This document shows positions 714-27,701 of a stretch of 32,833 nt of DNA, one piece after another. The DNA comes from a virus. The stretch's first letter is position 1, and the number at the start of each line of letters is the position of its first letter. The notes beneath the pieces were generated by a model. The model was given only the letters and a program-made list of their open reading frames with translations, was not told the DNA's origin and ran no database searches. The stretch is taken from positions 1 to 32,833 of the IMG/VR virus record IMGVR_UViG_3300035180_001353; one strand, 5' to 3'. A program made the translations under genes and the position numbers.

Positions 714-723
714 GAGGTAGATT

Positions 724-8181: not shown

Positions 8182-8195
8182 AATTATAGCTCTCC

Positions 8196-9441: not shown

Positions 9442-9453
9442 TAAACTTTCTCC

Positions 9454-11800: not shown

Positions 11801-11822
11801 TTCTATTTCTCCTTTGATTGAA

Positions 11823-15400: not shown

Positions 15401-15571
15401 CTTAAATGTATCTTCAATACTAAATGAACCTACCATACTATTCAATGGATAGTATTTATACTTGTCATTGTCATGAATAGTGACGATAACATTGTCATTG
15501 ATTTTGCCTTTATCATCAATCCAACCTAAATCTTGACAAACATCTCTGACCTTACATAATTCTTGTTTCAT
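12488..15571 (-). CDS. Primase-helicase fusion (AEP-like primase plus DUF927-like ATPase)
   Basis: 1027 residues with two modules. The N-terminal part resembles archaeo-eukaryotic primases: VGYADLDS with the D-x-D metal ligands (Asp91, Asp93), then KTYKGWHFLWV with the nucleotide-contacting His124. A Cys cluster (Cys297, Cys312, Cys318) lies between the modules. The second part has Walker A GDSKIGKT (555-562), Walker B PFVIDEVD (598-604) and TPTVFIGEVD (639-648), the order seen in DUF927-type helicase ATPases. A strongly acidic linker (EEDIEEDNHSEDIEE) lies around 800-830. It would unwind and prime DNA for the phage polymerase. The primase assignment rests on motif pattern; the ATPase is clearer. 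GGAG precedes the ATG. Confidence 0.85.
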   Translation of the reverse strand: MKQELCKVRDVCQDLGWIDDKGKINDNVIVTIHDNDKYKYYPLNSMVGSFSIEDTFKTFNNTHRICLALHTLDGAPSHDTFFRTKCVGYADLDSRLSLEEIESLFNENEFIKPTYLHKTYKGWHFLWVCEDWIDDKAILTAFSSLVKKNIKQSDAVNSIVAKTRTFTEELFTVKFGKLLSINKINSLVKNELKLISIDSKEYSLSEFSVEHVNFALQHCEVLKQLDSDWSNHRYEEWDIMSHVYAVKSVFDKTAEFDFLQKSLTWKGETNEKLIKQQFLHQFSWITKDAKILHLYGCPKFAKTVGAYVNGVCKFKKQCELALYNTPFKLKDVLEQDWFPFFFTKEGLFLQVRDKEGEFSNKLVCDIVSIDGVYDDIGGSDLIFFKVLVNRKDELKPEWLSIKIGNGKDKGLTILPISLKKIIVEPNMEFHLNTFLTLFYNKARKEGQFRMIYPIGYRNYSGTVFNPIITDDFLDFTILNVYHSDKNSGISEYDLKSKLSSYPVPMKYGEYDNWLKAYRNLPNDWVTWLLIGYFMTLVTRGFIQEMDINPVVCMSGDSKIGKTLRAKVASALFGSLKVFSYNNITYPKYTEIRSKLSIPFVIDEVDFNNKDLLSEDAIFNAAINPGIRTNKFGTVTGIGTPTVFIGEVDVVSFTESDRAGHFRRMVPINMSQDDEELVSYVKPILASLDILKDNFGFMCNLWPTILENKNDFIAIFNELRRSVRIERNLFEEPTLTVIASYASAIFFDRLINRRQLKFDTVIDWVNMISSYWKELLVNINEVSIESNNQEEDIEEDNHSEDIEEIKDDSPIDEVESVKRLIKTKLNSINITKDVPRKKKDNVYVGKHKERIFLKALKAFTNTHKVKIKNMTVLYNLSKQNVPNQHISKVKRFLGVMLFKKDKSYNHVVYNLYWMLNPVNRKDSGDLPEIYIERSYFATYKRLFSWYEDESDFVNWLLELDFKYITLTNDLFYSIGFRVLTTFYIETKKEIQMTDNKDVLKLLDEFYNKAKNYYEQQNKNYMVEQEVEI

Positions 15572-15580
15572 ATTGAACTC

Positions 15581-16324
15581 CTACATATTGAAGTATTTAC
15601 AAGCATCTGAATAAGTGCAATACTTACATGCCCAAGAATGAAACTTTCCTAATGGGGCTACAACTCCTGTCATACCATCAGAAACATACTTAACAACTTT
15701 CTCAACATACTTTTTATCTAAAGGCTTACATTTACATATCTTAACTTCATTCTTTGTAATATAATGCAATTCCTTACTGATAATAAAATCACTAACTTGA
15801 TTACGATACATAACATTATATAAACTCACTTGAAACAAATGACTAAAATCAGGAACATCATGTTTAATAGCTGAAGTAGTTTTCAAATCTATAATACGTT
15901 TATCAGTAAGGATATCAATATAACCAACTACTTTCTGATTATCAAAATAATCCTCTAAATAATACTCAACTCCCTCTATATTTTCATCCATAACTTCATA
16001 CAAAACATCACGATAAGAATCAACCATACACTCAACAGTCTCAATAATCTTATCTGTTACTTTATCATTAGGATTTCTTTCCTCAAAGAGATACTTGGAT
16101 TTTTCGATAGCTTTTATGAAATTTACACTATCTGAAACCAAAAGATTCTCTATAGCACCATGAAAAATTAATCCTCCTATAAGACTACTTGATAAAGGTG
16201 GTTTCTTGTATTGTGCGTCCTGCTTTAATTTCAAAGCATAAGGACACCTCAAAAACAAAGAAATAGTGGAAGCAGATAAGTGCTGAGGTAAATTTTCTAT
16301 AATAAAATCAGTTTCATTTTCCAT
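15581..16324 (-). CDS. Cas4/RecB-like PD-(D/E)XK nuclease with Fe-S cysteines
   Basis: Predicted DNA exonuclease. His55 lies in LIFHGAIEN; GYIDILTDKRIIDLKT supplies Asp137 and the D-x-K pair Asp146/Lys148; Gln165 follows in the QVSLYN helix. Four cysteines, Cys27 in RCPYALKL plus Cys233, Cys236 and Cys242 in CKYCTYSDAC, match the split iron-sulphur clamp of Cas4 and AddB. No CRISPR array or cas1/cas2 is nearby, so this is a phage recombination or end-processing nuclease rather than an adaptation enzyme. 247 residues is a usual size. It is two bases from the helicase gene, and the pair may act as a helicase-nuclease. Confidence 0.9.
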   Translation of the reverse strand: MENETDFIIENLPQHLSASTISLFLRCPYALKLKQDAQYKKPPLSSSLIGGLIFHGAIENLLVSDSVNFIKAIEKSKYLFEERNPNDKVTDKIIETVECMVDSYRDVLYEVMDENIEGVEYYLEDYFDNQKVVGYIDILTDKRIIDLKTTSAIKHDVPDFSHLFQVSLYNVMYRNQVSDFIISKELHYITKNEVKICKCKPLDKKYVEKVVKYVSDGMTGVVAPLGKFHSWACKYCTYSDACKYFNM

Positions 16325-16325
16325 T

Positions 16326-17507
16326 TTAAATCTCCTCTAAATTAAATTGACTATCACGCAATACATCTGTAACATCTTTTTTACTTTGTAATATCTGATA
16401 AACTTTGTTATCTATAGCATTGCCAAGAATATGATATACCACCACCTTATTCTTCTGTCCAGCTCTGTAAACCCTACTTAAACTCTGAACATAATCCCTA
16501 TAAGCCAAAGGCAAAGATAGAAATACAATATTCTTATATCTCTGTAAATTCAACCCTTCCTTGATACAGTATGAGGCAATCAAAGGTTTATCTTGCCTAA
16601 ATACACAAGTCTCTAATAGTTTCTTGTCATCACCTGTTATGAAATAACCATCAACATGCTTGGCTAACTCCTTAACAGGTGCAACAAAGTTACTAAACAC
16701 AACCGTATCAGGATTGTCCTTAATAAACTCAACCAGCCAAGCTATCTTTGTGTGATTAAAAACTTTCCCGTCCCACACACCTTGGGCAATCTGATACTTG
16801 GCTATAAACTGCGTCAAAACATTGACGCTATTATCTAATACAATCTCTTTAGGTTTCCTGATAGGCTCTGTTTTAATTGTAACATTTGATAACTCTGGCA
16901 ACTCTATTACATCTTCTCGTTTTACGATACTGAGATAAGGCTTGAATAATGCGATATAATTTTCTTGACTTATTCTTAACCTTTTAGGATTAAAGAAATT
17001 ATCAAGAAAAAAATATCTATTAACAAGAACAGAATAACCAGACATGAAAGGCCGCTGATTAGGGCATAAAATTTTGAATGGGAACAAAAGCTCATGCCAT
17101 TTATCAGCGGGAGTTCCGGATAACATTAAACAAGGAATATCAGGAAACTTCTGCCGTAATTGCAAAGCTACCTTTGAAACCTTGGCTTTATTAGATTTAA
17201 GACGATGAGCTTCATCGAAGATTATGAAATCAAATTTTTGAAATTTATCATCTGTCATACGATTGCGGAATGTCTCGTATGACATGATTGTAAATATGTT
17301 AGGATTCAATCCATATGTATTTATCTCATCTTGCCAAGATATAAACACATTTTTAGGACACACCACAAGTATATTATTGCTATGCAGTGTATCTACACAG
17401 GCACAAGCAAATCTTGTCTTGCCTGTGCCTGTATCCCAATAAGCATACATCTTTCCTAATGATTGGAATAAATTTACTCCATCCTGCTGGTGTTTCCAAA
17501 GAGACAT
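16326..17507 (-). CDS. SF2 DNA helicase/translocase (SNF2-like)
   Basis: ATP-driven DNA translocase of superfamily 2. Visible motifs: N-terminal KHQQDGVNLF, Walker A DTGTGKT (25-31), motif II DEAH (98-101), motif III LSGTPAD (129-135), and motif VI SLSRVYRAGQKNKV in the C-terminal lobe; the last is characteristic of SNF2/Rad54-type proteins. At 393 residues it is a compact two-lobe enzyme without accessory domains. Its neighbours, an SSB-like protein upstream and the Fe-S nuclease downstream, suggest a role in recombination-dependent replication or fork remodelling. Ribosome binding site GAAAGGATAAG precedes the ATG. Confidence 0.93.
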   Translation of the reverse strand: MSLWKHQQDGVNLFQSLGKMYAYWDTGTGKTRFACACVDTLHSNNILVVCPKNVFISWQDEINTYGLNPNIFTIMSYETFRNRMTDDKFQKFDFIIFDEAHRLKSNKAKVSKVALQLRQKFPDIPCLMLSGTPADKWHELLFPFKILCPNQRPFMSGYSVLVNRYFFLDNFFNPKRLRISQENYIALFKPYLSIVKREDVIELPELSNVTIKTEPIRKPKEIVLDNSVNVLTQFIAKYQIAQGVWDGKVFNHTKIAWLVEFIKDNPDTVVFSNFVAPVKELAKHVDGYFITGDDKKLLETCVFRQDKPLIASYCIKEGLNLQRYKNIVFLSLPLAYRDYVQSLSRVYRAGQKNKVVVYHILGNAIDNKVYQILQSKKDVTDVLRDSQFNLEEI

Positions 17508-17525
17508 AACTTATCCTTTCAAAAA

Positions 17526-18191
17526 TTAAAATGGCAATTCATCGTCATCTTCAGTATGCTGTGGTATTTCTTTATAACCTTTGTTGTAACTTGTAAGTAA
17601 TTCTTTAACTGTAGTGTAATTTTCTTTTAATACTTCATCTTCTATTTTTATCTCTTCATTGACATTCATAATTACTGGTGTATAATACACAATTGAACCC
17701 TTCTTGTTCTTCTTTAGCCCCATTGTCACTTCATTCAACAATGGAGGATTTTTACCGAAATACTCAATCCACGCCTTAATAGCTGAACCCTTCATGGGAA
17801 ACCAAGACAAAACATACCTATCTGGCATTTCAAGATAACCAAAGACAACTTGAATATAAGTCATCTTGGCACCCTGTTTTTCAAGACTGTCTGCTATCTC
17901 TGATAAAGGCTTCCTTGTTATCAAACAGGAAGCATTCTTGAGATTTTTAGGCACATCTATTGGAGATAGATACTTCAAAGTTTCTGTATCAACATCGAAG
18001 TATAGATACTGCCCTCGGATAGCCAAGACAGTGAAAGTTATCTTGCTATCCAAATCTATATCTCCAGTGGCTTTATCAACCAAAGTAAACTTGCCATGCT
18101 GATGATTTATTTTTATCATCGGCAACCCCAAAGACCTACCTGCCTTCAACCCATTTGACTCTTCTGAAATAATTTGTTCTTTAATACTCAT
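17526..18191 (-). CDS. Single-stranded DNA-binding protein candidate
   Basis: I do not recognise the body of this 221-residue protein. The C-terminus, HTEDDDELPF, has the acidic stretch ending in hydrophobic-Pro-Phe that bacterial and phage SSBs use to recruit partner proteins. The central part is beta-rich (KITFTVLAIRGQYLYFDV, then YIQVVFGYLE), compatible with an OB fold. Its place between helicase, nucleases, clamps and polymerase is where phages usually keep SSB. The function is inferred from tail and context. Strong ribosome binding site AAAAGGAGG before the ATG. Confidence 0.7.
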   Translation of the reverse strand: MSIKEQIISEESNGLKAGRSLGLPMIKINHQHGKFTLVDKATGDIDLDSKITFTVLAIRGQYLYFDVDTETLKYLSPIDVPKNLKNASCLITRKPLSEIADSLEKQGAKMTYIQVVFGYLEMPDRYVLSWFPMKGSAIKAWIEYFGKNPPLLNEVTMGLKKNKKGSIVYYTPVIMNVNEEIKIEDEVLKENYTTVKELLTSYNKGYKEIPQHTEDDDELPF

Positions 18192-18211
18192 GATAAAATC
18201 CTCCTTTTGAT

Positions 18212-19087
18212 TTATTTAATCTTACCTGCTTTGTAATCTTCCCACGGGACTGTATTATATATTGCCTTGTGGTTACACCATCGGGCAAAATGTTTTTGTT
18301 CTTGTGTTGGCTCGTTTCCTTCCATGTCCCTGTAAGGTTGACAAAATGGATTAACATATATTCCTTTCAAAAATCGCACACGTTCCAAAGCATCATCAAT
18401 ATCTTTAACTAAGACATAACAAAAATACTTTGAAGGTGTAACATTATGCCAACGTAATAATTCAACTGCTTTACGCACAGGCTCCATCATTGATTGAGAA
18501 TCACAAGCTAAACGTATATATGGTGACCATTTAACCTTGCCAAGCAAACGAGCTATACCATCATCAATCAAACGTGCATCAAGCCCTTGATTAAAATCTA
18601 TTTTTAATCCCAACTTGGCTATCTTCTCAATTTGAGCTATACCATGAGAATGAGCCAATACATTATTATCCATCAAGACAACTTCTTTATGCCTGGTAAA
18701 ATCCTCGATATCGTGATGAGCTCTTATCTTGCCTTCTTTCTTTGGAACAAAACACCAAGGACATGACCTAATACAACCTCGAGTCAAAAACCCATAAGAT
18801 TTATCACAATTATAAAGGCTATAATCAGGTACCATATTTTCAACTTCATCATCTAATGTTTTTGTAATATCAAAACCTGTCCCACCATAAACTGTTATCT
18901 CTGGTGGCAAGTATTGATTGGCCGGTGTCCATGTAAAAATTTTTGACGTATAAACTCTATCATAATCACCCAAAATAGGATTAAACCATTCAACTATATC
19001 ACCATGGACTTTATGCCATGATGATATTTTCATCAGAGCTAAATTAGGATAACCATTATTTTCATGGTCATAAAGTGCGATTTTCAT
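18212..19087 (-). CDS. Radical SAM protein
   Basis: Cys105, Cys109 and Cys112 in RGCIRSCPWCF form the C-x3-C-x2-C motif that binds the 4Fe-4S cluster used to cleave S-adenosylmethionine. The N-terminal ~90 residues (IALYDHENNGYPNLALMK, then ITVYGGTGFD) resemble the cobalamin-binding-like domain often fused to radical SAM enzymes, but I see no cobalamin-ligand motif. The C-terminus has another His/Cys segment (FARWCNHKAIY). I chose the ATG at 19087 over an upstream TTG at 19141, because the TTG would overlap the clamp gene and has no ribosome binding site. The AAAGGAGG is about 15 bases from this ATG, unusually far. Substrate unknown. Confidence 0.88.
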   Translation of the reverse strand: MKIALYDHENNGYPNLALMKISSWHKVHGDIVEWFNPILGDYDRVYTSKIFTWTPANQYLPPEITVYGGTGFDITKTLDDEVENMVPDYSLYNCDKSYGFLTRGCIRSCPWCFVPKKEGKIRAHHDIEDFTRHKEVVLMDNNVLAHSHGIAQIEKIAKLGLKIDFNQGLDARLIDDGIARLLGKVKWSPYIRLACDSQSMMEPVRKAVELLRWHNVTPSKYFCYVLVKDIDDALERVRFLKGIYVNPFCQPYRDMEGNEPTQEQKHFARWCNHKAIYNTVPWEDYKAGKIK

Positions 19088-19115
19088 TGACTTTGATAAA
19101 ATCCTCCTTTTTATT

Positions 19116-20252
19116 TTAATAACTTTTCTTAAAATAACCAACTATATAATGAAAATCCTTATCTGGTGAAGTAATTTTATAAATATCTTTAAGAGAATGT
19201 AAACTACTTATAGATACATTATTACCACACATCTTTAATATAGAAGTTAAAAATTGACTTTGTATAGTTAATTCAAATTCTTTATCAGAATTTAACTCAC
19301 AATTCACTCTTCTTTTCCTCGATTCATTACCACAACTATATACAATAACTTCTTTATTTTTAGCTTTTATAATTACAGCATTATCCACATCACCAATAGC
19401 TGCATACTCAACAGCTTTAATAAAAGATTCTGTTGAAACTGTTAAAACACAATCAACATCTGATTTTATAAAACCCTGCACTGGTGGAAACTCTTTTGTA
19501 ATACCACATACCATCCGATATGCACCATACTCAAATGAAATATAATCACCATGCACCTTAACAATAACATTCTTATCTCTTTGCTTTTTTAACTTGGTAA
19601 TCCAAGCTATCGCATCCCTTGGCACAATAACACAACCAAAAGGCCATGCAGTCTCCAAAGAAAAATCATAATACATCAATCGCATACTATCAGTGCGCAA
19701 AATCAATAAACAATTTGACTTCAAAGGGTGACTGTTAAAAACTACACTATTAAAATGAGTATCTTTCAAATCCTTTGTTGGCGGAATAAATTTTAATAAA
19801 TCTTGTATATTGTCAATAAATACTGTTGATAAAGAAATACTTTTCTCATCGTAAAACAAATCTAATATCTGAACATAACTATAATCTGGCTCTGATGACC
19901 AATCATTATAAAGTATATCATCCTTACACATAATCTTAAGAGTATCTTTATCGTACTTAAATGTAAGAAAATCAGTCTTATCAAGAGTCTTAAAAGCAGG
20001 CAATAAATCAAAGGCGTGCGGAATACCAAACATACCTTGACCAACACAGTTTTCAACATCCATATAAGCATAATAATCACTATACTTATAATGATTATTA
20101 TTATGAGCTTTCATGTTTACACACAGCTCACAATGGGAGTTTGTAACACGGCAATTCACATCATAATACTGCTTCGATACACATAACTTGACCTTTGCTA
20201 ATGTTTCTAACCTTTCAATCAAATCTTTTACTTGACAAGTAAACTCTATCAT
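19116..20252 (-). CDS. Sliding clamp-like protein, paralogue A (DnaN/PCNA-type fold)
   Basis: 378 residues. The pattern fits a processivity clamp: LRTDSMRLMYYDFSLE followed by CVIVPRDAIAWITKLKKQ matches the conserved region of bacterial beta clamps (TDGHRLA, then iPrk). Near the C-terminus, FELTIQSQFLTSILKMCG and DKDFHYIVGYFKK correspond to the last clamp domain. It would encircle DNA and tether the polymerase. It is clearly paralogous to the upstream gene at 20266-21399: same length, with matching blocks along the whole protein such as GDV(D/N)(N/S)AV and RRVNC. Sequence identity to known clamps is low, so the family call is moderate. AAAGGAG precedes the ATG. Confidence 0.75.
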   Translation of the reverse strand: MIEFTCQVKDLIERLETLAKVKLCVSKQYYDVNCRVTNSHCELCVNMKAHNNNHYKYSDYYAYMDVENCVGQGMFGIPHAFDLLPAFKTLDKTDFLTFKYDKDTLKIMCKDDILYNDWSSEPDYSYVQILDLFYDEKSISLSTVFIDNIQDLLKFIPPTKDLKDTHFNSVVFNSHPLKSNCLLILRTDSMRLMYYDFSLETAWPFGCVIVPRDAIAWITKLKKQRDKNVIVKVHGDYISFEYGAYRMVCGITKEFPPVQGFIKSDVDCVLTVSTESFIKAVEYAAIGDVDNAVIIKAKNKEVIVYSCGNESRKRRVNCELNSDKEFELTIQSQFLTSILKMCGNNVSISSLHSLKDIYKITSPDKDFHYIVGYFKKSY

Positions 20253-20265
20253 ATTAGCTCCTTTC

Positions 20266-21399
20266 TTATTTTCTACAACTTGTAACGATATAATAAAAAT
20301 CCTTATCTGATGAAGTAATTACATACAAATCTTTACTGAAAAGTAATTGATTTACGAATACCTTATCACCACACTTCTGTAAGATAGAGGTTAAAAATTT
20401 ATTTTTTACATTCCATTCAAATTCTTTCTCTAACACACAATTTACTCTTCTTGACCTTGACTCATTATCATTCCAATTAGAGATAACCAAATTTTTATTT
20501 TCAGATTTTATAGTGACAGCACTATTCACATCACCAATCGTTGCATACTCAACAGCCTTAAGAAACGGCTTCGTTGAAACGATGAAAACCAAATCAACAT
20601 CTGATTTTATAAAATCAGCAACAGGCAAAAACTGTTTATCAACTAAACATACAACACGATAATCATCATACTCCAATGATAAAACATGTTCATGAAGCTT
20701 AACCAAAACACTCTTGTTCTTTTTATTTTTTAACTTGGAAAACCAAGTCATGACCTCTTCAGGAATAACAATACAACCAAATGGCCATTCAGTATCCAAA
20801 GAAATAGGATAATACATTAACCTAATACTATCTGTTCGCATCACAACCAAACTATTGGATTGTAAAGGGTTTTTATCAAAAACAATACTATTAAAACGTG
20901 CATCTTTAGAATCCTTTCTTGAGGGAATAACCTTAAGTAAATTAGTTGTATAATCAAGTAATGCTGAAGGTAACTGAATTTCCTTATTAAATTCAAGAGT
21001 GTTTAATAGCTGAATATAACTATCATCTGGAACTTCTGAAGAACCCTTAAGAAGTATATCATCACCATATAAAACAGTTACTTTCTTATCATCAAATCGA
21101 ATTGCTATATAATCATTCTGACCAATAGTTTTAAGTATCTCAAGTAACTCAATGAATGATGGTATTACAAACATACCATTACCTTTGCATGTAACATTAT
21201 TAAGATAAGCATAATAATCAGCGTATGTAGAACGCTGATTATTATTAGAGTTAAATACTAAACATAACTCACATAAATTATTATGCTCGTTTACCCTAAC
21301 TGAAATAGGTGCCGAAGACTTCTTTGAAACTAACTTGACTTTAGATAAGACAGTCAATTTCTCAATCATTTCTTTTACTTGACAAGTAATTTCTATCAT
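20266..21399 (-). CDS. Sliding clamp-like protein, paralogue B
   Basis: 377 residues and collinear with the next gene: MRTDSIRLMYYPISLDTEWP and IVIPEEVMTWFSKLKNKKN mirror the clamp blocks of paralogue A, and both end in a similar DKDF(H/Y)YIV strand. Differences are spread evenly, so both copies appear to be under selection rather than one decaying. The ribosome binding site AGGAGG overlaps the stop of the 33-residue membrane peptide gene. The two paralogues may form a hetero-oligomeric ring, serve different partners or act at different times; the sequence does not say which. Confidence 0.75.
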   Translation of the reverse strand: MIEITCQVKEMIEKLTVLSKVKLVSKKSSAPISVRVNEHNNLCELCLVFNSNNNQRSTYADYYAYLNNVTCKGNGMFVIPSFIELLEILKTIGQNDYIAIRFDDKKVTVLYGDDILLKGSSEVPDDSYIQLLNTLEFNKEIQLPSALLDYTTNLLKVIPSRKDSKDARFNSIVFDKNPLQSNSLVVMRTDSIRLMYYPISLDTEWPFGCIVIPEEVMTWFSKLKNKKNKSVLVKLHEHVLSLEYDDYRVVCLVDKQFLPVADFIKSDVDLVFIVSTKPFLKAVEYATIGDVNSAVTIKSENKNLVISNWNDNESRSRRVNCVLEKEFEWNVKNKFLTSILQKCGDKVFVNQLLFSKDLYVITSSDKDFYYIVTSCRK

Positions 21400-21403
21400 A
21401 ACA

Positions 21404-21505
21404 TTACCTCCTAATAAGTTTAATAACTTTCAGACCAAATTCACAAGCTAAAAATACCACCATAAACCCCAACAAATAAATCCCAAACATAAACATGACT
21501 TCCAT
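21404..21505 (-). CDS. 33-residue membrane peptide
   Basis: A short gene with its own strong ribosome binding site (AAAGGAG, nine bases before the ATG), ending at a TAA that overlaps the AGGAGG of clamp paralogue B. The peptide begins MEVMFMFGIYLLGFMVVF and continues LACEFGLKVIKLIRR: one hydrophobic span of about 20 residues, then a basic tail predicted to be cytoplasmic. The stop/SD overlap suggests translational coupling to the clamp gene. Function unknown; it could anchor replication to the membrane or be a small regulatory or toxic peptide. Confidence 0.6.
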   Translation of the reverse strand: MEVMFMFGIYLLGFMVVFLACEFGLKVIKLIRR

Positions 21506-21577
21506 ACTTGAAGTCTCCTTTCATTGAAGTATTTTATTAAATGTGCTTCATAACTGCCGATGAATATGTTTAATATA

Positions 21578-21663
21578 TTGCCAAGGAAGGGACTCGAACC
21601 CTTATGGCTTTACAGCCAAGAGATTTTAAGTCTCTTGTGTCTACCTATTTCACCACCTTGGCA
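21578..21663 (-). tRNA. tRNA-Leu (anticodon UAA)
   Basis: A complete class II tRNA of 86 bases. The acceptor stem TGCCAAG pairs with CTTGGCA, the anticodon stem AGAGA/TCTCT encloses loop CTTAAAA (anticodon TAA), and there is a long variable arm (GGCTGTAAAGCC) and a T-arm with GGTTCGAGTCC. The discriminator is A and CCA is not encoded. It reads UUA, heavily used in this AT-rich genome, so it probably supplements host tRNA. Its first 19 bases overlap the 3' end of the dCMP deaminase gene. Confidence 0.95.
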
Positions 21664-22094
21664 TCTAACTCTGCTTCATCAAGTAAATCTTGTGTAAGAT
21701 TATCTGAATAACCTTCAGAATAAACTATCCTAATAATACCTGCATTGATAAGCATTTTAGCACAGATTACACAAGGAAACGTTGTGCAATATAACGTCGC
21801 ACCATCAACAGAAAATCCAAACTTGGCCGCCTGTATCAAGGTATTCTGCTCTGCATGTAAACCTCGACACAATTCATGCCTTTCACCCGATGGTATGCCC
21901 TTCTTGTCACGCATACAACCTGTATCTAAACAGTGACGCAGACCAGACGGCGCCCCGTTATAACCAGTCGCTAAAATCCTCTTATCCTTAACCAACACTG
22001 CCCCAACCTGTCTTCTTATGCAGGTTGACCGAGTCGCCACCATACTGGCCAAAGACAAAAAATAATCGTCCCAAGATGGTCTGTTAAAACCCAT
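21645..22094 (-). CDS. dCMP/deoxycytidylate deaminase
   Basis: Converts dCMP to dUMP, the substrate of thymidylate synthase. The zinc site is HAE (80-82) with catalytic Glu82, and PCVIC (107-111) with ligands Cys108 and Cys111. The N-terminal [17 protein letters not shown] and NGAPSGL blocks are typical of phage and bacterial dCMP deaminases. 149 residues is full length. AAAGGAG lies six bases before the ATG. It is the first gene behind a TTGACA/TTTAAT promoter, so it leads the replication operon. Its last codons and TAG stop are embedded in the tRNA-Leu gene. Confidence 0.95.
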
Positions 22095-22114
22095 AACTGT
22101 CTCCTTTGTTTTTT

Positions 22115-22143
22115 ATTAAACCCTAACATTTAACGATTGTCAA
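22115..22143 (-). promoter_or_regulatory. Sigma70-type promoter for the replication operon
   Basis: On the minus strand, perfect TTGACA (22138-22143), a 17-bp spacer and TTTAAT (22115-22120, five of six consensus bases). Initiation near 22108 would give a very short leader beginning close to the AAAGGAG of the dCMP deaminase gene. It lacks the upstream repeat module seen at the accessory promoters. Confidence 0.75.
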
Positions 22144-22165
22144 GGGATTTTTTTGCAGACTTTTA

Positions 22166-22507
22166 TTACAGTAAATCATGTAAAAATCTGTAATTATTTT
22201 TCACAAAAAAGTTATTATACTCCTCCCTTAAATCAAAAAATAAACTTAAACAAAGTAAAGACTTCAACCTTTGAAACCTGGAATAACTCATACACACCCC
22301 TGTTAATGAATAACCTTTACAATATATTTTATTCACAAGTAAAGTATAAAAATCATACTGAATTTTTCCTTTATTCATGTCAACCAAATCTAAAAATAAC
22401 TTAATTTCAGACTCATCATTAAAAAATTTATAAATGGCTCTCTTGACCTCTTTGCCATGAACACAATTAAAATCCTGTAAATACTGCTCATAATCTATTC
22501 TTTTCAT
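22166..22507 (-). CDS. Unknown protein (113 aa)
   Basis: No family recognised. A helical, Phe/Tyr/Leu-rich protein that begins MKRIDYEQYLQDF and contains SYSRFQRLKSLLCLSLFFDL (about residues 74-93). There are no metal-binding motifs and no convincing membrane span. A strong AAGGAG with seven-base spacing precedes the ATG. It is the last gene before the promoter of the replication operon, and a long inverted repeat lies just upstream (22555-22640). An early accessory role is inferred from location only. Confidence 0.75.
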   Translation of the reverse strand: MKRIDYEQYLQDFNCVHGKEVKRAIYKFFNDESEIKLFLDLVDMNKGKIQYDFYTLLVNKIYCKGYSLTGVCMSYSRFQRLKSLLCLSLFFDLREEYNNFFVKNNYRFLHDLL

Positions 22508-22554
22508 TTTTTATCTCCTTAAGTATGTATTTTTGTAAAATCAATTCTAATGCC

Positions 22555-22640
22555 CTTAAATGCCACCAGGACGAGACCGGCTGAAAAAGAATACTATCCT
22601 ACCAGAATAATGCTCAAGTCTTTTCCTGCTGGCATTTAAG
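22555..22640 (-). repeat. 17-bp inverted repeat, possible structured RNA
   Basis: Arms 22555-22571 and 22624-22640 are complementary at 16 of 17 positions (CTTAAATGCC... with ...GGCATTTAAG), separated by 52 bases. The centre can add a short AGAC/GTCT pairing. A third related copy, TTAAATGGC, follows at about 22646-22654. The 153-base gap between genes (22508-22660) holds no convincing open frame. On the minus transcript it would fold just upstream of the 113-residue gene. It could be an attenuator, a small RNA or a relic of a small mobile repeat; I recognise no known riboswitch. Confidence 0.5.
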
Positions 22641-22660
22641 ACCATTAAATGGCAATCCTG

Positions 22661-22900
22661 CTATTGAACAAGGATAGAATAACAACAGTCGTATTTAATG
22701 ATTCCATCTTTATCCAAATAAGGCCATGATATTTCATGGGCTGTTAACTCATGCTTTGGCAATGCAGTTTTCAAAACCTTTTGCCAAGCATCCAAAAATT
22801 CAGCACCACAAATGATTTGAATGACCGTGTTATGAAACGTTATGTCATAACAGGGTATTTCATAATACATTAAATGTTTTATAATAAAATCTTTTTCCAT
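22661..22900 (-). CDS. Unknown small protein (79 aa)
   Basis: No family recognised. Begins MEKDFIIKHLMYYEIPCYD and contains CGAEFLDAWQKVLKTALPKH. It mixes beta and helical segments and has no membrane span. The ribosome binding site is moderate (TAAGGT, seven bases before ATG). It is co-directional with its neighbours, 25 bases after the 119-residue gene and upstream of the inverted-repeat region. Probably an early accessory protein; no specific function can be argued. Confidence 0.65.
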   Translation of the reverse strand: MEKDFIIKHLMYYEIPCYDITFHNTVIQIICGAEFLDAWQKVLKTALPKHELTAHEISWPYLDKDGIIKYDCCYSILVQ

Positions 22901-22925
22901 TAAATTAACCTTAAAAATCTCAATT

Positions 22926-23285
22926 TTACTCTCCTTTCATAAATCTATACTGCAACAACCCACCAGATAAAGATAAATAAAACGTGTCAATAAACTTTTT
23001 TGTTTCACATTTCCACTCACTCCAGACAGTGGTTGTAGTGTTGACAGGCATTTTTAACATAACCAAACCTTGTCCAAGATAGTTGACCTCGACGTCCTTG
23101 TCAAACGGAGCTAAAAGTTTTTCAAAAGTAAAATAAAAAATGTATTTTTTCTTTCCTGTAATATACAACTGGACATGGCTATTTGGATTATACGATATAA
23201 TCTCATACTTGTCCCCAACAGCCATGCCATATTGCCCTTGTAAAAGCGTTTGATGTGCCTGAATCCAAATAGAACGATTTTTCAT
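22926..23285 (-). CDS. Unknown accessory protein, family A (119 aa)
   Basis: No known function. It is visibly related to the protein at 25677-26006. Both have a G-x-(Y/F) start of the core, then K-(Y/F)-x-x-YFT (KKYIFYFT here), then LK(M/V)P(V/F)N (LKMPVN here), then KFIDTFYLSLSGG matching EFIYRCYLSYHGV, in the same order and spacing. The core is beta-rich and has no cysteine motif. AAGGG about 11 bases before the ATG gives a modest ribosome binding site. The shared pattern defines a small phage paralogue family scattered through the accessory cassettes. Confidence 0.75.
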   Translation of the reverse strand: MKNRSIWIQAHQTLLQGQYGMAVGDKYEIISYNPNSHVQLYITGKKKYIFYFTFEKLLAPFDKDVEVNYLGQGLVMLKMPVNTTTTVWSEWKCETKKFIDTFYLSLSGGLLQYRFMKGE

Positions 23286-23289
23286 TGTC

Positions 23290-23416
23290 TTAAATCCCTT
23301 TCATAATATAAAAATTAACTACATAAAAACCTTTTTCTAATGTCCCATAATTCCAAGCCAAATCAGTTTTGTCAAGTAAACAATCTATCAACAACTCATC
23401 AAATTTCGATTAACAT
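23290..23416 (-). pseudogene. Frame-disrupted small gene (about 42 codons)
   Basis: An excellent ribosome binding site, GGAGG with nine-base spacing, precedes the ATG at 23416, but this frame stops after MLIEI. One frame over, an uninterrupted stretch from about 23409 to the TAA at 23290 reads KFDELLIDCLLDKTDLAWNY and continues GTLEKGFYVVNFYIMKGI, with protein-like composition. A single-base indel near 23405-23416 would join them. It could be a mutation, a sequencing error or a programmed shift. The 25-residue gene upstream overlaps the ribosome binding site. Confidence 0.45.
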
Positions 23417-23420
23417 TATC

Positions 23421-23498
23421 TTAATCCTCCAATTGAGAAGTTAATAAATGCTTCAAATTATCCGTCTCATAACTTTTCCCATCAAAGTTAATTTTCAT
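23421..23498 (-). CDS. 25-residue peptide
   Basis: ATG preceded by AAAGGAG with eight-base spacing, in a leader nearly identical to that of the gene at 24693-24893 (AAGGAGATTAAAAAATGAA). The peptide is MKINFDGKSYETDNLKHLLT plus SQLED. It is the first reading frame downstream of the promoter at 23555-23583 and the leader hairpin at 23527-23540, so it is probably translated. It may act as a leader peptide for the following frames or as a small effector. Function unknown. Confidence 0.5.
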   Translation of the reverse strand: MKINFDGKSYETDNLKHLLTSQLED

Positions 23499-23526
23499 TT
23501 TTTAATCTCCTTTATTTTTTAGATTT

Positions 23527-23540
23527 AAGCCTCTTGGCTT
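23527..23540 (-). promoter_or_regulatory. 5'-leader hairpin, cassette 1
   Basis: On the minus transcript AAGCC-AAGA-GGCTT forms a five-bp stem with a four-base loop, starting about eight bases after the expected transcription start of the 23555-23583 promoter. The same element recurs at 24663-24676 and, altered, at 25261-25275, always at the same distance. Probable mRNA 5'-end protection or regulator binding. Confidence 0.6.
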
Positions 23541-23554
23541 ATTATGTAATTTCA

Positions 23555-23583
23555 ATATTACCATCATAATTTAATCTTGTCAA
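23555..23583 (-). promoter_or_regulatory. Accessory-cassette promoter 1
   Basis: Minus strand TTGACA (23578-23583), 17-bp spacer, TGG extended element and TAATAT (23555-23560). The repeat module R1 lies immediately upstream. Drives the small genes from 23498 downward. Confidence 0.7.
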
Positions 23584-23738
23584 GAGATATTTTTGATTAT
23601 TTCAAATAATAATTCTGAAATAATCGTGTTAAAATTGCCATTTAATCCAAAGAAAATAACAAAAATAGACTGCCCGTTAAATTCAGACAATTGTCCGATA
23701 GAATTAAACAACTGTCCGTTAAAACTAAATAAATTCAT
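23580..23738 (-). repeat. Upstream repeat module R1, with an open 52-codon frame
   Basis: This is one of four related modules directly upstream of accessory promoters (others at about 24718-24850, 25317-25543 and 26086-26160). Shared landmarks, read on the plus strand, include AATAATAATTCT, GTGTTAAAATTG, CAAAGAAAT(G/A)A, and CCGTTAAATTCAGACAA. Here the minus strand is also open for 52 codons (MNLFSFNGQLFNSIGQLSEF then NGQSIFVIFF), with a stop that overlaps TTGACA. There is no ribosome binding site. Module R2 encodes a similar LSEFNGQSVFVI stretch, so coding is possible but unproven. Confidence 0.5.
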
Positions 23739-23776
23739 GCCATAAATTGTAAACCATCAGAAAAATAACTCACAAA

Positions 23777-23834
23777 TTTTTATTTTATATAATTTTATAA
23801 ACAAAAGTATTTATAAAATTATATAAAATAAAAA
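23777..23834. repeat. 25-bp AT-only inverted repeat
   Basis: Arms 23777-23801 and 23810-23834 are perfect 25-base complements made only of A and T, with loop CAAAAGTA. It follows the GC-stem terminator in the direction of minus-strand transcription. It could form a cruciform or reinforce termination. A very similar element is at 25568-25630. Confidence 0.85.
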
Positions 23835-23868
23835 CCCTTGCCATATGGTTTAGGATATGGCAAGGGTT
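23833..23868 (-). terminator. Intrinsic terminator after the 107-aa gene
   Basis: Perfect 14-bp stem AACCCTTGCCATAT (23833-23846) with ATATGGCAAGGGTT (23855-23868), eight-base loop. On the minus strand it is followed directly by TTTTATTTTATA. It lies seven bases beyond the stop codon of the gene at 23876. Confidence 0.9.
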
Positions 23869-23875
23869 GATTAAG

Positions 23876-24199
23876 TTAAAAATTCTGATAAACAATCGTA
23901 TCGTGCTCTGTTACTCCAAGCACGATGGCGTTTTGATTTAAGAACTCAATTACTGTTTGCTTATCAGCCTCTGCATCGAGGCCTTGCGCATTAAGATTAT
24001 TCTCTGAAATAATCTCATTAAATGAGCTTTCAGAAAATCTGCCCCGAAAATCTGCAGGGTCAAATTCGGTTTCATTCATATCATCTTCATCTTCGGTTAA
24101 GTAATCCCATAACAATTCAAGAGCTTCATAAGAAAAAGAGTTATATGGTGCGTCTCTCATCCAATCGATAAATTCATTTTTGTTTAACGTGTATTTCAT
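23876..24199 (-). CDS. Small acidic phage protein (107 aa)
   Basis: Strongly acidic (LWDYLTEDEDDMNETEFD, about residues 29-46) and without Cys. It contains the order FSYEALELLWDYL, acidic stretch, then EFDPADFRGRFSE. This resembles a widely spread uncharacterised phage and mobile-element family that I recognise by pattern but cannot name. Highly acidic small early proteins are sometimes DNA mimics, including anti-restriction proteins; that is a hypothesis only. AAAGGAG nine bases before ATG. It shares promoter 24690-24718 with the upstream gene and ends at the strong terminator 23833-23868. Confidence 0.8.
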   Translation of the reverse strand: MKYTLNKNEFIDWMRDAPYNSFSYEALELLWDYLTEDEDDMNETEFDPADFRGRFSESSFNEIISENNLNAQGLDAEADKQTVIEFLNQNAIVLGVTEHDTIVYQNF

Positions 24200-24226
24200 T
24201 GTCTTATTCTCCTTTATTTTTAGATT

Positions 24227-24634
24227 TTAATTATATTGAAAATCTTTCAACCGGTTAATTAAATCTTCTGACCATGGCACGCCCGAAAGTGTGAGGATTA
24301 TAGGGTCATGCCGGAGCTCCGTTTCTTTCAAAACCCAAATAGTTTTATCTGAATAAAAAACAACAAAATCAAAAAATAAAATTACACAACAAACAGTTGA
24401 ATTTTTTGAATTCTTTGCCACTGTGGCAATACAACCACCATCAATAAAATCAATGTTACCCCAAAAAGAGGTAACCCATTGTGAAGAATTTTTGTCTGAA
24501 ATAAATTCATAAACTTCATAATTTTTTTCAGTTTTAATAAATTTCAAATAACCCTTGGCAGGCAAGCTGTCACCCGCTTGCCCATAAATCACAAAACCCT
24601 TATGCCAGTTCCGATAATCAAGTAAAATTTTCAT
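24227..24634 (-). CDS. Unknown accessory protein, family C (135 aa)
   Basis: Start chosen at the ATG at 24634 (MKILLDYRNWHKGF). The longer frame begins at a TTG that is part of the TTGACA promoter box and would lie upstream of the transcription start. GGGGA lies about 11 bases before this ATG. The N-terminal FVIYGQAGDSLPAKGYLKF aligns with LIIYGISKKDLPIKGDIIEF of the gene at 24990-25235, followed by Tyr/Phe and Trp at matching places. Near the C-terminus, ILTLSGVPW resembles the YLS-x-x-G end of the family A proteins. A hydrophobic beta stretch (VCCVILFFDFVVFY) lies near residue 85. Function unknown. Confidence 0.75.
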   Translation of the reverse strand: MKILLDYRNWHKGFVIYGQAGDSLPAKGYLKFIKTEKNYEVYEFISDKNSSQWVTSFWGNIDFIDGGCIATVAKNSKNSTVCCVILFFDFVVFYSDKTIWVLKETELRHDPIILTLSGVPWSEDLINRLKDFQYN

Positions 24635-24662
24635 TGACTTTATCCCCTTTATTTTTAGATTT

Positions 24663-24676
24663 AAGCCTCTTGGCTT
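24663..24676 (-). promoter_or_regulatory. 5'-leader hairpin, cassette 2
   Basis: AAGCC-AAGA-GGCTT on the minus transcript, identical to the hairpin at 23527-23540. It starts about seven bases after the expected start site of promoter 24690-24718. Confidence 0.6.
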
Positions 24677-24689
24677 TTCTTTAATTTTA

Positions 24690-24718
24690 AGATTACCATA
24701 ACCTTGAAGTCTTGTCAA
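24690..24718 (-). promoter_or_regulatory. Accessory-cassette promoter 2
   Basis: Minus strand TTGACA (24713-24718), 17-bp spacer ending in TATGG, then TAATCT (24690-24695). The -10 hexamer is weak but carries the TG extension. It overlaps the 3' end of the small frame at 24693-24893. Confidence 0.6.
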
Positions 24719-24893
24719 TAGCTTTTTGTGATTTTATCTTGAATAATAATTCTAAAATTAAAAATGCCATTTGAGTCAAAGAAATGACAAAAACAGACTG
24801 CCCGTTAAATTCAGACAAATTTTCCGATAAAATTAAACAACTATCCGATTTTATTTCATTCACAAAATCAAATCTTGATAATGTCATTTTCAT
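24693..24893 (-). CDS. Small protein overlapping repeat module R2 (66 aa)
   Basis: ATG with AAAGGAG at eight-base spacing in a leader almost identical to that of the 25-residue peptide gene, so initiation is likely. The N-terminal MKMTLSRFDFVNEI is unique. The middle LSENLSEFNGQSVFVIS matches the frame in module R1, and the C-terminus runs through the upstream module and promoter 2, stopping at TGG-TAA inside the extended -10. A hydrophobic stretch (TQMAFLILELLF) could span a membrane. It may be a real peptide, or a gene start that now reads into repeat DNA. Confidence 0.45.
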   Translation of the reverse strand: MKMTLSRFDFVNEIKSDSCLILSENLSEFNGQSVFVISLTQMAFLILELLFKIKSQKAIDKTSRLW

Positions 24894-24972
24894 TTTTTAA
24901 TCTCCTTTATTTTTTATTTTTAGCCTATCGAATTTTTGTTGAAACCTGACAACACACGCCTTTATACTCAAA

Positions 24973-24991
24973 AATGCCTTTATCCGGCATT
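24973..24991 (-). terminator. Weak terminator hairpin at the end of the 81-aa gene
   Basis: AATGCC (24973-24978) pairs with GGCATT (24986-24991), seven-base loop, followed on the minus strand by TTT. It overlaps the stop codon of the gene at 24990. Short stem and short U-run, so partial termination at best. Confidence 0.4.
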
Positions 24992-25235
24992 AAAAAATTG
25001 TAACATCTTGAATAGTTTTTTTATAAAAATAGAAAGCATAGGATACAATCGAACCTTGTTCAAGGCCTCGAATTGTAACTATACCTTTTTTAATATATAG
25101 CCAATGACCTTCACTTGACGGATAAAACGCATAAAGTTTTCTCATGCCCTTCTGCCCAAATTCAATAATATCGCCTTTAATAGGCAAGTCTTTTTTACTA
25201 ATGCCATAAATAATTAAATTTTTGTAACGAATCAT
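24990..25235 (-). CDS. Unknown accessory protein, family C, short member (81 aa)
   Basis: Starts MIRYKNLIIYGISKKDLPIK. The block IYG-x5-LP-x-KG, followed by Y-x-F and a Trp about 25 residues later, is shared with the N-terminal half of the 135-residue protein at 24227-24634, so the two are paralogues and this one is shorter. Predicted mostly beta strands. AAAGGAG with eight-base spacing before ATG. It is the first gene after promoter 25289-25317 and the leader hairpin 25261-25275. Function unknown. Confidence 0.75.
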   Translation of the reverse strand: MIRYKNLIIYGISKKDLPIKGDIIEFGQKGMRKLYAFYPSSEGHWLYIKKGIVTIRGLEQGSIVSYAFYFYKKTIQDVTIF

Positions 25236-25260
25236 TTTTTAACTCCTTTATTTTAGATTT

Positions 25261-25275
25261 AAGCCTTATCAGCTT
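25261..25275 (-). promoter_or_regulatory. 5'-leader hairpin, cassette 3 (variant)
   Basis: On the minus transcript AAGC pairs with GCTT around a seven-base loop. Same position relative to the promoter and the same flanks (TTAAATCTAAAA on the 3' side) as the two perfect copies, but with changed stem bases. Confidence 0.45.
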
Positions 25276-25288
25276 TTCTTTGATTCCA

Positions 25289-25317
25289 ATCTTATCATAT
25301 TATGTTGTCATTGTCAA
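25289..25317 (-). promoter_or_regulatory. Accessory-cassette promoter 3
   Basis: Minus strand TTGACA (25312-25317), 17-bp spacer ending TATGA, then TAAGAT (25289-25294); extended -10. Repeat module R3 lies immediately upstream. Confidence 0.7.
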
Positions 25318-25406
25318 TAGCTTTTTTTTTGATTTACTTGAATAATAATTCTAAAATAATTGTGTTAAAATTGTCAGTTAAGCCAAAGAAATGACAAAAA
25401 CAGGCG

Positions 25407-25543
25407 TCCGTTAAAATTCAAACAATTTACTGTTAAAATTTAAGATTATCCGATAAAATTTAGGATTATCCGTTAAAATTTTAATTTTTCCGATAAAATT
25501 AAATAAATTGACCGTTAAAATTTTAACACAAAAAGATAAAATT
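25407..25543. repeat. Seven AT-rich iteron-like repeats, 20-22 bp period
   Basis: The core (T/A)TAAAATT occurs at 25411, 25433, 25453, 25473, 25493, 25515 and 25536, mostly preceded by CCG or a derivative. Spacings are 22, 20, 20, 20, 22 and 21 bases, about two helical turns, which would place all cores on one face of the DNA. It is an extension of the CCGTTAAA end of modules R1 and R2. No coding frame stays open through it. Candidate protein-binding array or origin iterons. Confidence 0.75.
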
Positions 25544-25567
25544 AATATATTTCCCAAAAAAAAGTGA

Positions 25568-25630
25568 TTTTTATTTTATAAAATAAAATTTTAGATTGTA
25601 AAAAATAAATTTTATTTTATAAAATAAAAA
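25568..25630. repeat. 24-bp AT-only inverted repeat built from two palindromes
   Basis: Arms 25568-25591 and 25607-25630 are perfect complements, 15-base loop. Each arm contains the self-palindrome TTTTATTTTATAAAATAAAA. It follows the terminator at 25630-25672 in the direction of minus-strand transcription, the same arrangement as at 23777-23868. Confidence 0.85.
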
Positions 25631-25672
25631 AGCCCTAAAAAGCATGATTTTTTGTCACGCCTTTTAGGGCTT
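25630..25672 (-). terminator. Intrinsic terminator after the 109-aa gene
   Basis: An 18-bp stem (25630-25647 with 25655-25672) built on AAGCCCTAAAA. Two positions pair only as G-U wobbles on the minus-strand RNA and mismatch on the plus-strand RNA, which fixes the working orientation. A T-rich tract follows on the minus strand, four bases beyond the gene's stop codon. Confidence 0.9.
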
Positions 25673-25676
25673 AAAT

Positions 25677-26006
25677 TTAATCAACTTCACGGAGCCATTT
25701 GACTCCGTGATAACTTAAATAACATCGATAAATAAACTCCTTATCGTCCCTGTCTTGCATAAAAAATAAGCAAGATTTATTAAAAGGAACTTTTAATAAA
25801 TCAATTTCTCCAAATCTTTTTACGACACCCTCAGATGTAGAAATTATGCAATCAGAGGTAAAATAATACAAAAACTTCGGTGCACCCTTCACAACAAAAG
25901 AAAAATACCAGGGGTCTTTTTTGAGACCCTCATAAATTAATGTGTTACCAATAGCAAAATTCCCGTTTTTTACCGCCCCAGATACTGCAAAATCTGTGAT
26001 AATCAT
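25677..26006 (-). CDS. Unknown accessory protein, family A (109 aa)
   Basis: Paralogue of the 119-residue protein at 22926-23285. FVVKGAPKFLYYFT, LLKVPFN and EFIYRCYLSYHGV line up in order with its counterparts, whereas the N-terminus (MIITDFAVSGAVKNGNFAIG) differs. Beta-rich and soluble. It sits alone in a complete transcription unit: promoter 26058-26086, ribosome binding site AGGAGGAG, terminator 25630-25672. It is the outermost minus-strand gene, next to the putative origin region, and so likely among the first expressed. Function unknown; a host-takeover or anti-defence role is possible. Confidence 0.8.
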   Translation of the reverse strand: MIITDFAVSGAVKNGNFAIGNTLIYEGLKKDPWYFSFVVKGAPKFLYYFTSDCIISTSEGVVKRFGEIDLLKVPFNKSCLFFMQDRDDKEFIYRCYLSYHGVKWLREVD

Positions 26007-26057
26007 TTTTTACTCCTCCTAAAATTAAAATTAAAATCAACCTACATCGTTGGCTAT

Positions 26058-26086
26058 ACAATAGCATATCCAATTTACCATGTCAA
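26058..26086 (-). promoter_or_regulatory. Accessory-cassette promoter 4
   Basis: Minus strand TTGACA (26081-26086), 17-bp spacer ending TATGC, then TATTGT (26058-26063). Extended -10. A decayed upstream module (R4, to about 26160) keeps the AAGAGCTTTTTT and AATAATAAGTTTA landmarks. Drives the gene at 25677-26006. Confidence 0.7.
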
Positions 26087-26178
26087 GAGCTTTTTTGAGT
26101 TATTTGAAATAATAAGTTTACAAAAATCGTGTTACTTTGATTACTCAAGGAAATAGGGAAAGACAACGGCTTGGATTA

Positions 26179-26266
26179 GGCCCGGCCCGAACAAGGATAG
26201 CATGGCAGGGCATGACATAGGCAAGGATAGGATAGATGGGCCCGACTCGAGCAAGGATTGCATGGC
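26179..26266. repeat. GC-rich island with a duplicated 28-bp element
   Basis: Copies at 26179-26206 and 26239-26266, exactly 60 bases apart, match at 24 of 28 positions (GGCCCG...CAAGGAT-GCATGGC). The surrounding DNA is AT-rich, so the island stands out. Blocks ATGGGCCCG and GCAAGGATTGCATGG also match the 29-bp tandem repeats at 27162-27335, in inverted orientation. Confidence 0.75.
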
Positions 26267-26491
26267 TTGCACAAAAATCTTATTAAAAAAATGGCATTTT
26301 TATAACTGTTTTATAATAAAATCAAATAGTTAAACCATAATTTAACATGAAAAAAACATGAAAAAACATAAAGTCAAAAAATGAGAAATGAGCTTTTTAA
26401 TAAGGATTTTTTTAATTATAACAATAGGTTAAGTATCAAAAAATCTTATGACTTTTTTTTTTATATTAAGGGTGTAAAAACTGAAAAAAGT

Positions 26492-26570
<79 letters not shown>

Positions 26571-26773
26571 TTATTATTTGAAGTTATATAAATATATATA
26601 TATATATCATGGAATTTTTTCACCTGTTTCTTGACTCTGTAAAGCTCTGTTTTTATTAAGTCTTTTTGTGGGGCTTTTTTCTTTGAATTAAAGCCGATTT
26701 GGGGCCTATATAAAATTTTTTAATAGCCAAAAATCGACTAACTTTTTAACAATTTACTATAAAAAATTTTTAT

Positions 26774-26940
26774 TTATAGTAATAAATTTTATAGTGAATT
26801 TATAAGTTACTTATAAATTGAAAATTTTTTTAATTAAATCAATATGTTATAAGGGCTGTTTATAACATATTGATTTTATTGCGTTTTGAAATGAAAATTT
26901 ACAAGTAACTTATAAATTCATAATTTTATAGTTACTATAG
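26774..26940. repeat. 167-bp nested imperfect palindrome
   Basis: Three pairs of arms share one centre near 26857. The inner pair is a perfect 16-bp stem (26836-26851 with 26861-26876, nine-base loop). The middle pair is a 24-base arm with one mismatch (26796-26819 with 26896-26919). The outer pair is TATAGTAA/TTACTATA (26775-26782 with 26932-26939). The middle arm at 26797-26819 is itself a palindrome (AATTTATAAGT-T-ACTTATAAATT). Almost pure A+T outside the inner loop. Candidate origin or cruciform. Confidence 0.85.
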
Positions 26941-27161
26941 GTTTTATCTATATGTGCAAAAATTGCACTTTTTAATAAAATTATTTAATTAAATAAGTTA
27001 ACTTAAAAAAGTTTCGTATGAAGTTAAGTTGCATTATGCAACATTCGCTTATTTTTAATAAATTATTTAATGTTAAGAATGTTTCTGTTTTATGTCGTAT
27101 AACTGCCATTATGTAAAATTCCAAGATTTTTCAAGATTACTTTTAACTTTAGAATGTTAAT

Positions 27162-27335
27162 GCCAAGCCAAGTGGGCCCATTCAAGCCTTGCCAAGCCAA
27201 GTGGGCCCATGCAAGCCTTGCCAAGCCAAGCGGGCCCATGCAAGCCTTGTCAAGCCAAGTGGGCCCATTCAAGCCTTGCCAAGCCAAGTGGGCCCATGCA
27301 AGCCTTGCCAAGCCAAGCGGGCCCATGCAAGCCTT
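27162..27335. repeat. Six 29-bp GC-rich tandem repeats in an 87-bp higher-order pattern
   Basis: The unit starts GCCAAGCCAAG(T/C)GGGCCCA and ends (T/G)CAAGCCTT. Starts: 27162, 27191, 27220, 27249, 27278, 27307, then a partial unit at 27336. Variants recur as a three-unit block: 27162-27248 and 27249-27335 differ at one base. Every unit carries the palindrome GGGCCC. There are no spacers, so it is not CRISPR. Confidence 0.97.
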
Positions 27336-27353
27336 GTCAAGCCAAGCCAAGTT

Positions 27354-27488
27354 ATGGCATTTGACGCAAGAGACGACAATCGGCGTTATGCGGAGGTAAG
27401 GAGGGCCAATGAAAATTTCCCAGAACGCAAAACGCCCACAGGCCTCTTCTTTCTTACTATCCGTGTCTGCGCAAAATTAGTTATATAA
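27354..27488 (+). pseudogene. Possible gene fragment of GC-richer DNA (44 codons)
   Basis: Directly after the tandem repeats, a frame from an ATG with no ribosome binding site reads MAFDARDDNRRYAEVRRANE and continues NFPERKTPTG. It has protein-like charge patterning and higher GC than the phage genes. Nested in another frame, GGAGGTAAGGAGG precedes an ATG at 27409 encoding 23 residues (MKISQNAKRPQASSFLL...) to 27480. Either could be a relic of acquired DNA; neither is convincing as a working gene. Confidence 0.25.
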
Positions 27489-27548
27489 TGCGAGGCTTTA
27501 CTTGATTAAACCACCTTTATTTTTTCTTAATCCTTATTCTTTATTTTA

Positions 27549-27577
27549 TTGACAAATACGTTTTTTATTTGTAAGAT
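27549..27577 (+). promoter_or_regulatory. Late-operon promoter P1
   Basis: TTGACA (27549-27554), 17-bp spacer, TAAGAT (27572-27577). Confidence 0.6.
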
Positions 27578-27582
27578 ATTTC

Positions 27583-27610
27583 TTGACAAATATATTTTTA
27601 GTTGTATAAT
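27583..27610 (+). promoter_or_regulatory. Late-operon promoter P2
   Basis: TTGACA (27583-27588), 16-bp spacer, perfect TATAAT (27605-27610). Shares the TTGACAAAT start with P1 and P3. Confidence 0.75.
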
Positions 27611-27617
27611 ATATGTA

Positions 27618-27646
27618 TTGACAAATGTTTTTTAGTATGTTATAAA
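27618..27646 (+). promoter_or_regulatory. Late-operon promoter P3
   Basis: TTGACA (27618-27623), 17-bp spacer ending TATGT (extended -10), TATAAA (27641-27646). The three promoters are spaced 34-35 bases apart and all begin TTGACAAAT. Confidence 0.75.
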
Positions 27647-27648
27647 CA

Positions 27649-27676
27649 ATTAACCTATAATCAAATATAGGTTAAT
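27649..27676 (+). promoter_or_regulatory. Leader hairpin/operator at the P3 start site
   Basis: Perfect 11-bp inverted repeat ATTAACCTATA (27649-27659) and TATAGGTTAAT (27666-27676) with a six-base loop, overlapping the expected P3 start site near 27653. Either a repressor operator or a 5'-end mRNA hairpin. Confidence 0.7.
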
Positions 27677-27701
27677 CAAATTCTTTAATGAGGGTTTAAT
27701 A

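Follow-up and report, generated by a model that had tools for sequence, protein, structure and literature searches.

Gene layout around the divergent gap

The sequence under study is the whole of IMG/VR record IMGVR_UViG_3300035180_001353, which stems from an uncultured phage and measures 32,833 nucleotides; it is referred to here as the window. The record is probably a fragment of the phage genome, since a portal-like gene is present but no terminase was found within the record. Plus-strand genes run from 27702 to the record end and from 72 to 5652, and minus-strand genes occupy 6043-26006. The gene at 27702 (plus strand) encodes an SU10-like portal (PF23899) for which ~50,000 phage records yielded no match, and no portal relatives that could assign a host were found in genome contigs. 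The best radical SAM match (49% identity) is in a phage that appears otherwise unlike this one over the 41 kb compared.

The minus-strand block encodes ribonucleotide reductase, a DNA methyltransferase, a family-A DNA polymerase (PolA), thymidylate synthase and dCMP deaminase, and further a PD-(D/E)XK nuclease, an SNF2-type helicase and two clamp-like proteins. The neighbouring genes 19116-20252 and 20266-21399 both resemble DNA polymerase processivity clamps (phrog_947), and a tRNA-Leu (TAA) gene lies at 21578-21663 on the minus strand. Two features of this layout bear on the interpretation of the locus:

26007-27701, no strand: non-coding gap between the divergent gene blocks (ORF list, gap list)
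12488-15571, minus strand: gene for a candidate initiator of 1,027 aa that carries Walker A/B and primase-like motifs (motifs by eye)

In the 1,027-aa protein, YADLD and GWH match by eye the hhhDhD and sxH pattern of archaeo-eukaryotic primases (PMC5862659), and Walker A and B motifs are found as GDSKIGKT and FVIDEVD. At motif level only, the protein may thus be termed primase-helicase-like. It had no match in Pfam, NCBIfam or PHROGs, nor among PDB sequences, and comparison with a profile of the Bordetella phage BPP-1 primase detected no homology, a weak negative given the narrow alignment (Neff 1.9). Two AlphaFold models, with mean pLDDT of 31 and 38, were not usable.

The gap of 1,695 bp is the largest non-coding stretch of the record and its only gene-orientation divergence, in agreement with the placement between divergent operons given in an initial annotation of a candidate replication origin. 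The same annotation put the element near early promoters, which does not hold: the best promoter-like sites facing the gene blocks (26086-26058, minus strand; 27583-27610, plus strand) lie ~700 bp away on each side. It had also proposed a GC-skew switch as a check. The minimum of the cumulative GC skew does fall in the gap, but at third codon positions the coding strand has a G excess of +0.40 for the plus block and +0.33 for the minus block, and since gene orientation alone yields the same curve, the switch cannot separate replication from transcription. The skew argument for an origin is therefore weak, being fully confounded with gene orientation. No conserved reading frame was seen by eye in the gap when aligned with its relatives, and a conserved short ORF was rejected because frames are not kept between them.

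A row of hairpins in the A+T-rich core

The following features, none of them assigned to a strand, make up the core of the gap:

26705-26778: hairpin A, an imperfect dyad just left of the palindrome, present in all relatives (consensus fold, pair counts)
26774-26940: the nested palindrome as first reported (dyads, shuffles, fold of single-stranded DNA, identity between genomes)
26797-26819: left copy of a 23-bp self-palindrome, found only in this record and in relative L003
26832-26880: inner dyad, 21-bp arms and a 7-nt loop, absent in relative L004
26896-26918: right-hand copy of the self-palindromic 23-mer, shared by all six genomes but degraded in L003 and L004
26936-26952: hairpin F, of the type TATAGG-N5-CCTATA, paired in 5 of 5 aligned genomes
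26954-26968: hairpin G, GTGCAA-N3-TTGCAC and then T5, resembling a terminator on the plus strand, paired in 5 of 5 aligned genomes
27061-27150: second conserved non-coding block, 84-96% identical between genomes, with a possible leftward promoter by eye

The palindrome had been described as three concentric arm pairs centred at ~26857 in nearly pure A+T DNA. Two strong dyads with almost the same centre are indeed present: the inner arms (26832-26852 and 26860-26880) pair at 20 of 21 positions (95%) around 26856, and the outer arms (26795-26819 and 26896-26920) at 24 of 25 (96%) around 26857.5, with one mismatch in each, whereas the third arm pair amounts to only ~8 bp (TATAGTAA/TTACTATA). The inner and outer dyads reach ungapped scores of 18 and 22. 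When the surrounding 560 bp (26591-27150) were shuffled 200 times with dinucleotides preserved, the highest score was 17 and the 99th percentile 16. The A+T content is 84%, short of nearly pure although at the 99.5th percentile of the window.

The nested appearance arises in part from the repetition of a self-palindrome. Each 25-bp outer arm holds one copy or near copy of a 23-mer of the form AATTTATAAG-TTA-CTTATAAATT, and the arms pair as an inverted repeat because each contains a copy of this one self-palindromic sequence; at the same time they form a direct repeat with a spacing of 99 bp. A mobile palindromic element was considered and rejected, as the palindrome is single copy in the record and a core 23-mer was found elsewhere only in the five relatives described below, with no copies in phage or plasmid records. 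Within the window the outer dyad is the third-best ungapped dyad. Stronger, perfect A+T dyads of 25 bp (23777-23834) and 24 bp (25568-25630) immediately follow, on the 3′ side, G+C-rich terminator hairpins that belong to minus-strand genes; in most relatives either the dyads or these terminators are found again at corresponding positions. The palindrome at 26774-26940 is not 3′ of any predicted gene.

Folded as single-stranded DNA, 26774-26940 reaches -33.9 kcal/mol (z -9.2), and 0 of 200 shuffles were as good. Along the gap, strong folding excess is confined to ~26700-26999; it occurs on both strands, the minus strand showing as much as the plus strand or more. The block is thus better described as a row of hairpins over ~26705-26968 (hairpin A, the 23-mers, the inner dyad, hairpins F and G) than as one palindrome. 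The loop of hairpin G reads AAA in this record and L007 and TTT in the other relatives on an unchanged stem, as if the hairpin had been inverted. In a consensus fold of five aligned genomes 94% of cells are paired, a value equal to that of the shuffled control because the alignment columns hardly vary. In the same five genomes, with columns nearly invariant, no covariation beyond shuffles was found in the hairpin block, a result that speaks neither for nor against structure; a structured RNA backed by covariation was rejected, as was a known RNA family, the block having no Rfam match up to E = 1.

Searches for initiator sites of known types gave the following picture. DnaA box-like sites occur at chance level with no cluster in the gap, unlike the cluster beside A+T-rich DNA of a DnaA-dependent origin, and no repeated initiator site was found beyond the 23-mers, of which there are two here and one in four relatives, rather than an iteron-type array.

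Constraint and loss among relatives

The same gap was found in five contigs encoding a close relative of the portal (L003-L007), with 94-97% portal identity over the four full-length copies, the L007 copy being partial. Among genomes retaining the block, identity over the palindrome region is 90-98%, and comparisons with L004 give 84-90% over the columns that remain; the inner dyad, where present, is 92-98% identical. As a neutral comparison, four-fold degenerate portal sites show 72-81% identity between the genomes, and the flanking G+C-rich array 53-84%. Since 90-98% stands against 72-81% at the four-fold sites, the palindrome block is, as judged from these alignments, under constraint.

What is kept is not the concentric nesting, which is near exact in this record but occurs in only two of the six genomes (this record and L003). 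In L005-L007 it is gone because the left 23-mer is missing. L004 lacks ~100 bp that include the inner dyad, as well as the left arm, and its folding excess is reduced to z about -3. Its sequence is close to the expected product of a deletion between the two direct 23-mers of L003, 99 bp apart, and from this match we infer that a repeat-driven deletion took place. L004 is a metagenome assembly in which an assembly error is possible, but it carries substitutions of its own across the deletion junction, which argue against a simple chimera. Taken together, the natural variants, with both 23-mers, with one 23-mer or with the inner dyad missing, show what the element can lose.

The surroundings of the core are variable in another way. 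All six phages have a trinucleotide array of 22-27 copies, a range that short-read assembly may have limited, at one shared location in the gap (26492-26570 in this record). Its unit changes from genome to genome: (AAC)26 in this record, (AGT/GTA)n in L003, L005, L006 and L007, and (GTT)22 in L004. G+C-rich short-repeat arrays at 26160-26280 and 27160-27350 flank the A+T-rich core on both sides and vary in repeat unit and length between close relatives. Just upstream of the portal start, a dyad AACCTATA...TATAGGTT at 27652-27678, kept in most relatives, is a possible operator or leader hairpin.

Possible functions and comparison with known origins

Hairpins in excess over chance, under constraint and placed in the only divergent gap are directly shown at this locus, and the best single reading of them, which we hold tentatively, is that the hairpin row at 26705-26968 is a cis-acting phage replication-origin region. 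Within this gap, the easily melted A+T-rich core with its hairpins would serve as origin. The initiator would be a phage protein, possibly the primase-helicase-like one of 1,027 aa; it would recognise either the 23-bp palindrome or hairpins that extrude when the DNA is supercoiled, open the core and prime there, after which the phage family-A polymerase and the clamps would copy outward in both directions. The origin reading is supported by dyads and folding far above shuffles combined with the high identity of the block, by the location in the only divergent gap, which is also the largest non-coding stretch and holds the cumulative GC-skew minimum, and by the family-A polymerase, two clamp-like proteins, helicase and nuclease that the phage encodes. 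The primase and P-loop motifs of the 1,027-aa protein also support it, in light of the precedent of plasmid pRN1 (PMC4234260). It is weakened by the confounded skew, by the loss of the inner dyad in L004 and of the left arm in L005-L007, by the absence of covariation, of an iteron array and of a DnaA-box cluster, and by the motif-level assignment of the primase-helicase. The origin proposed by the initial annotation is thus partly supported, in that a constrained non-coding element lies in the only divergent gap of a phage with replication genes, although this putative origin lacks a DnaA-box cluster and, in one relative, the inner dyad.

The main rival to the origin reading is a regulatory or RNA region, in which the hairpins would be operators bound by a phage regulator or parts of a structured RNA of ~300 nt ending at the hairpin and T-run at 26954-26973. 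The terminator-like hairpin G with its T5 on the plus strand fits this, as does the position between divergent gene blocks, and a TTGACT-type site at ~26632 (by eye in the alignment) and the conserved block at 27061-27150 could be promoters. However, the folding excess on the minus strand is at least as large as that on the plus strand, neither an Rfam match nor covariation was found, and the main promoters of both blocks are ~700 bp distant. We regard this explanation as somewhat unlikely.

It could also be that the palindrome is passive and unstable, as A+T-rich inverted repeats build up in the spacers of this phage, and functionless here. The window has further strong A+T dyads in its spacers, arms have been gained and lost between relatives, and the loss in L004 resembles a simple direct-repeat deletion. 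Such a view is nevertheless hard to square with the constraint, the inner dyad being 92-98% identical whereas four-fold sites and the nearby G+C-rich array are less so, and we consider it improbable. Even less probable is a packaging, terminus or recombination site (pac, cos, a joined direct terminal repeat or a resolution site). The gap lies immediately before the portal gene, and a terminally repeated genome can have its ends joined in assembly, but L006 has its large terminase gene ~10 kb further on from the start of the portal gene, away from the gap, which makes a packaging or terminus site less likely. All six contigs run through the gap, which argues against a terminus though a joined one would also fit, and no recombinase gene was found next to the gap.

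If confirmed, the locus would give a phage group with a portal unmatched among ~50,000 phage records a mapped origin candidate that has been tested by comparison. A fuller proposal, to which we give little credence, would be a hairpin-cluster origin that is served by a divergent phage primase-helicase and a family-A replisome and tolerates loss of its main stem-loop, with flanking short-repeat and triplet arrays that are stable in position but variable in unit between close relatives.

Several known origins offer points of comparison. The origin of phage lambda is an iteron origin with palindromic sites, in which short palindromic repeats lie beside A+T-rich DNA. Short palindromic repeats beside A+T-rich DNA are seen here as well, but as one or two 23-mers whose number is not conserved, and not as an iteron array. 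The primase-polymerase of phage NrS-1 starts at an 8-nt template motif, TTTGGTTA, of which the genome has two copies, and no palindrome is described there, in contrast to the present locus (PMC7102993, PMC8718748). The two phages would have in common a phage-encoded primase-polymerase with a helicase domain, here a motif-level candidate, and candidate origin sites inside the genome; however, the NrS-1 enzyme is the only polymerase of its phage, whereas a family-A polymerase is present here.

The crenarchaeal plasmid pRN1 requires a 100-nt stem-loop for replication and encodes a Rep protein combining a primase with an SF3 helicase, and a similar stem-loop has been proposed for Bordetella phage BIP-1 (PMC4234260). 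As in these systems, a large stem-loop (100 bp or more) lies in non-coding DNA, here with the strong single-strand fold noted above, and the replication protein, a primase-helicase there, may be one here by motifs alone. In pRN1 and BIP-1 the replication gene is followed directly on its 3′ side by the stem-loop, whereas here ~11 kb separate the hairpin block from the candidate gene; there the structure is kept and the sequence is not, whereas here the sequence is kept; and here the stem-loop is incomplete in some relatives, both the inner dyad and the left arm being missing from L004, and the left arm from L005-L007. The 1,027-aa protein further differs from the BIP-1 case in its lack of detected homology to the BPP-1 primase, a weak negative as noted. 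We therefore do not class the element as a member of the pRN1/BIP-1 type, but by analogy it may work like an origin of that kind.
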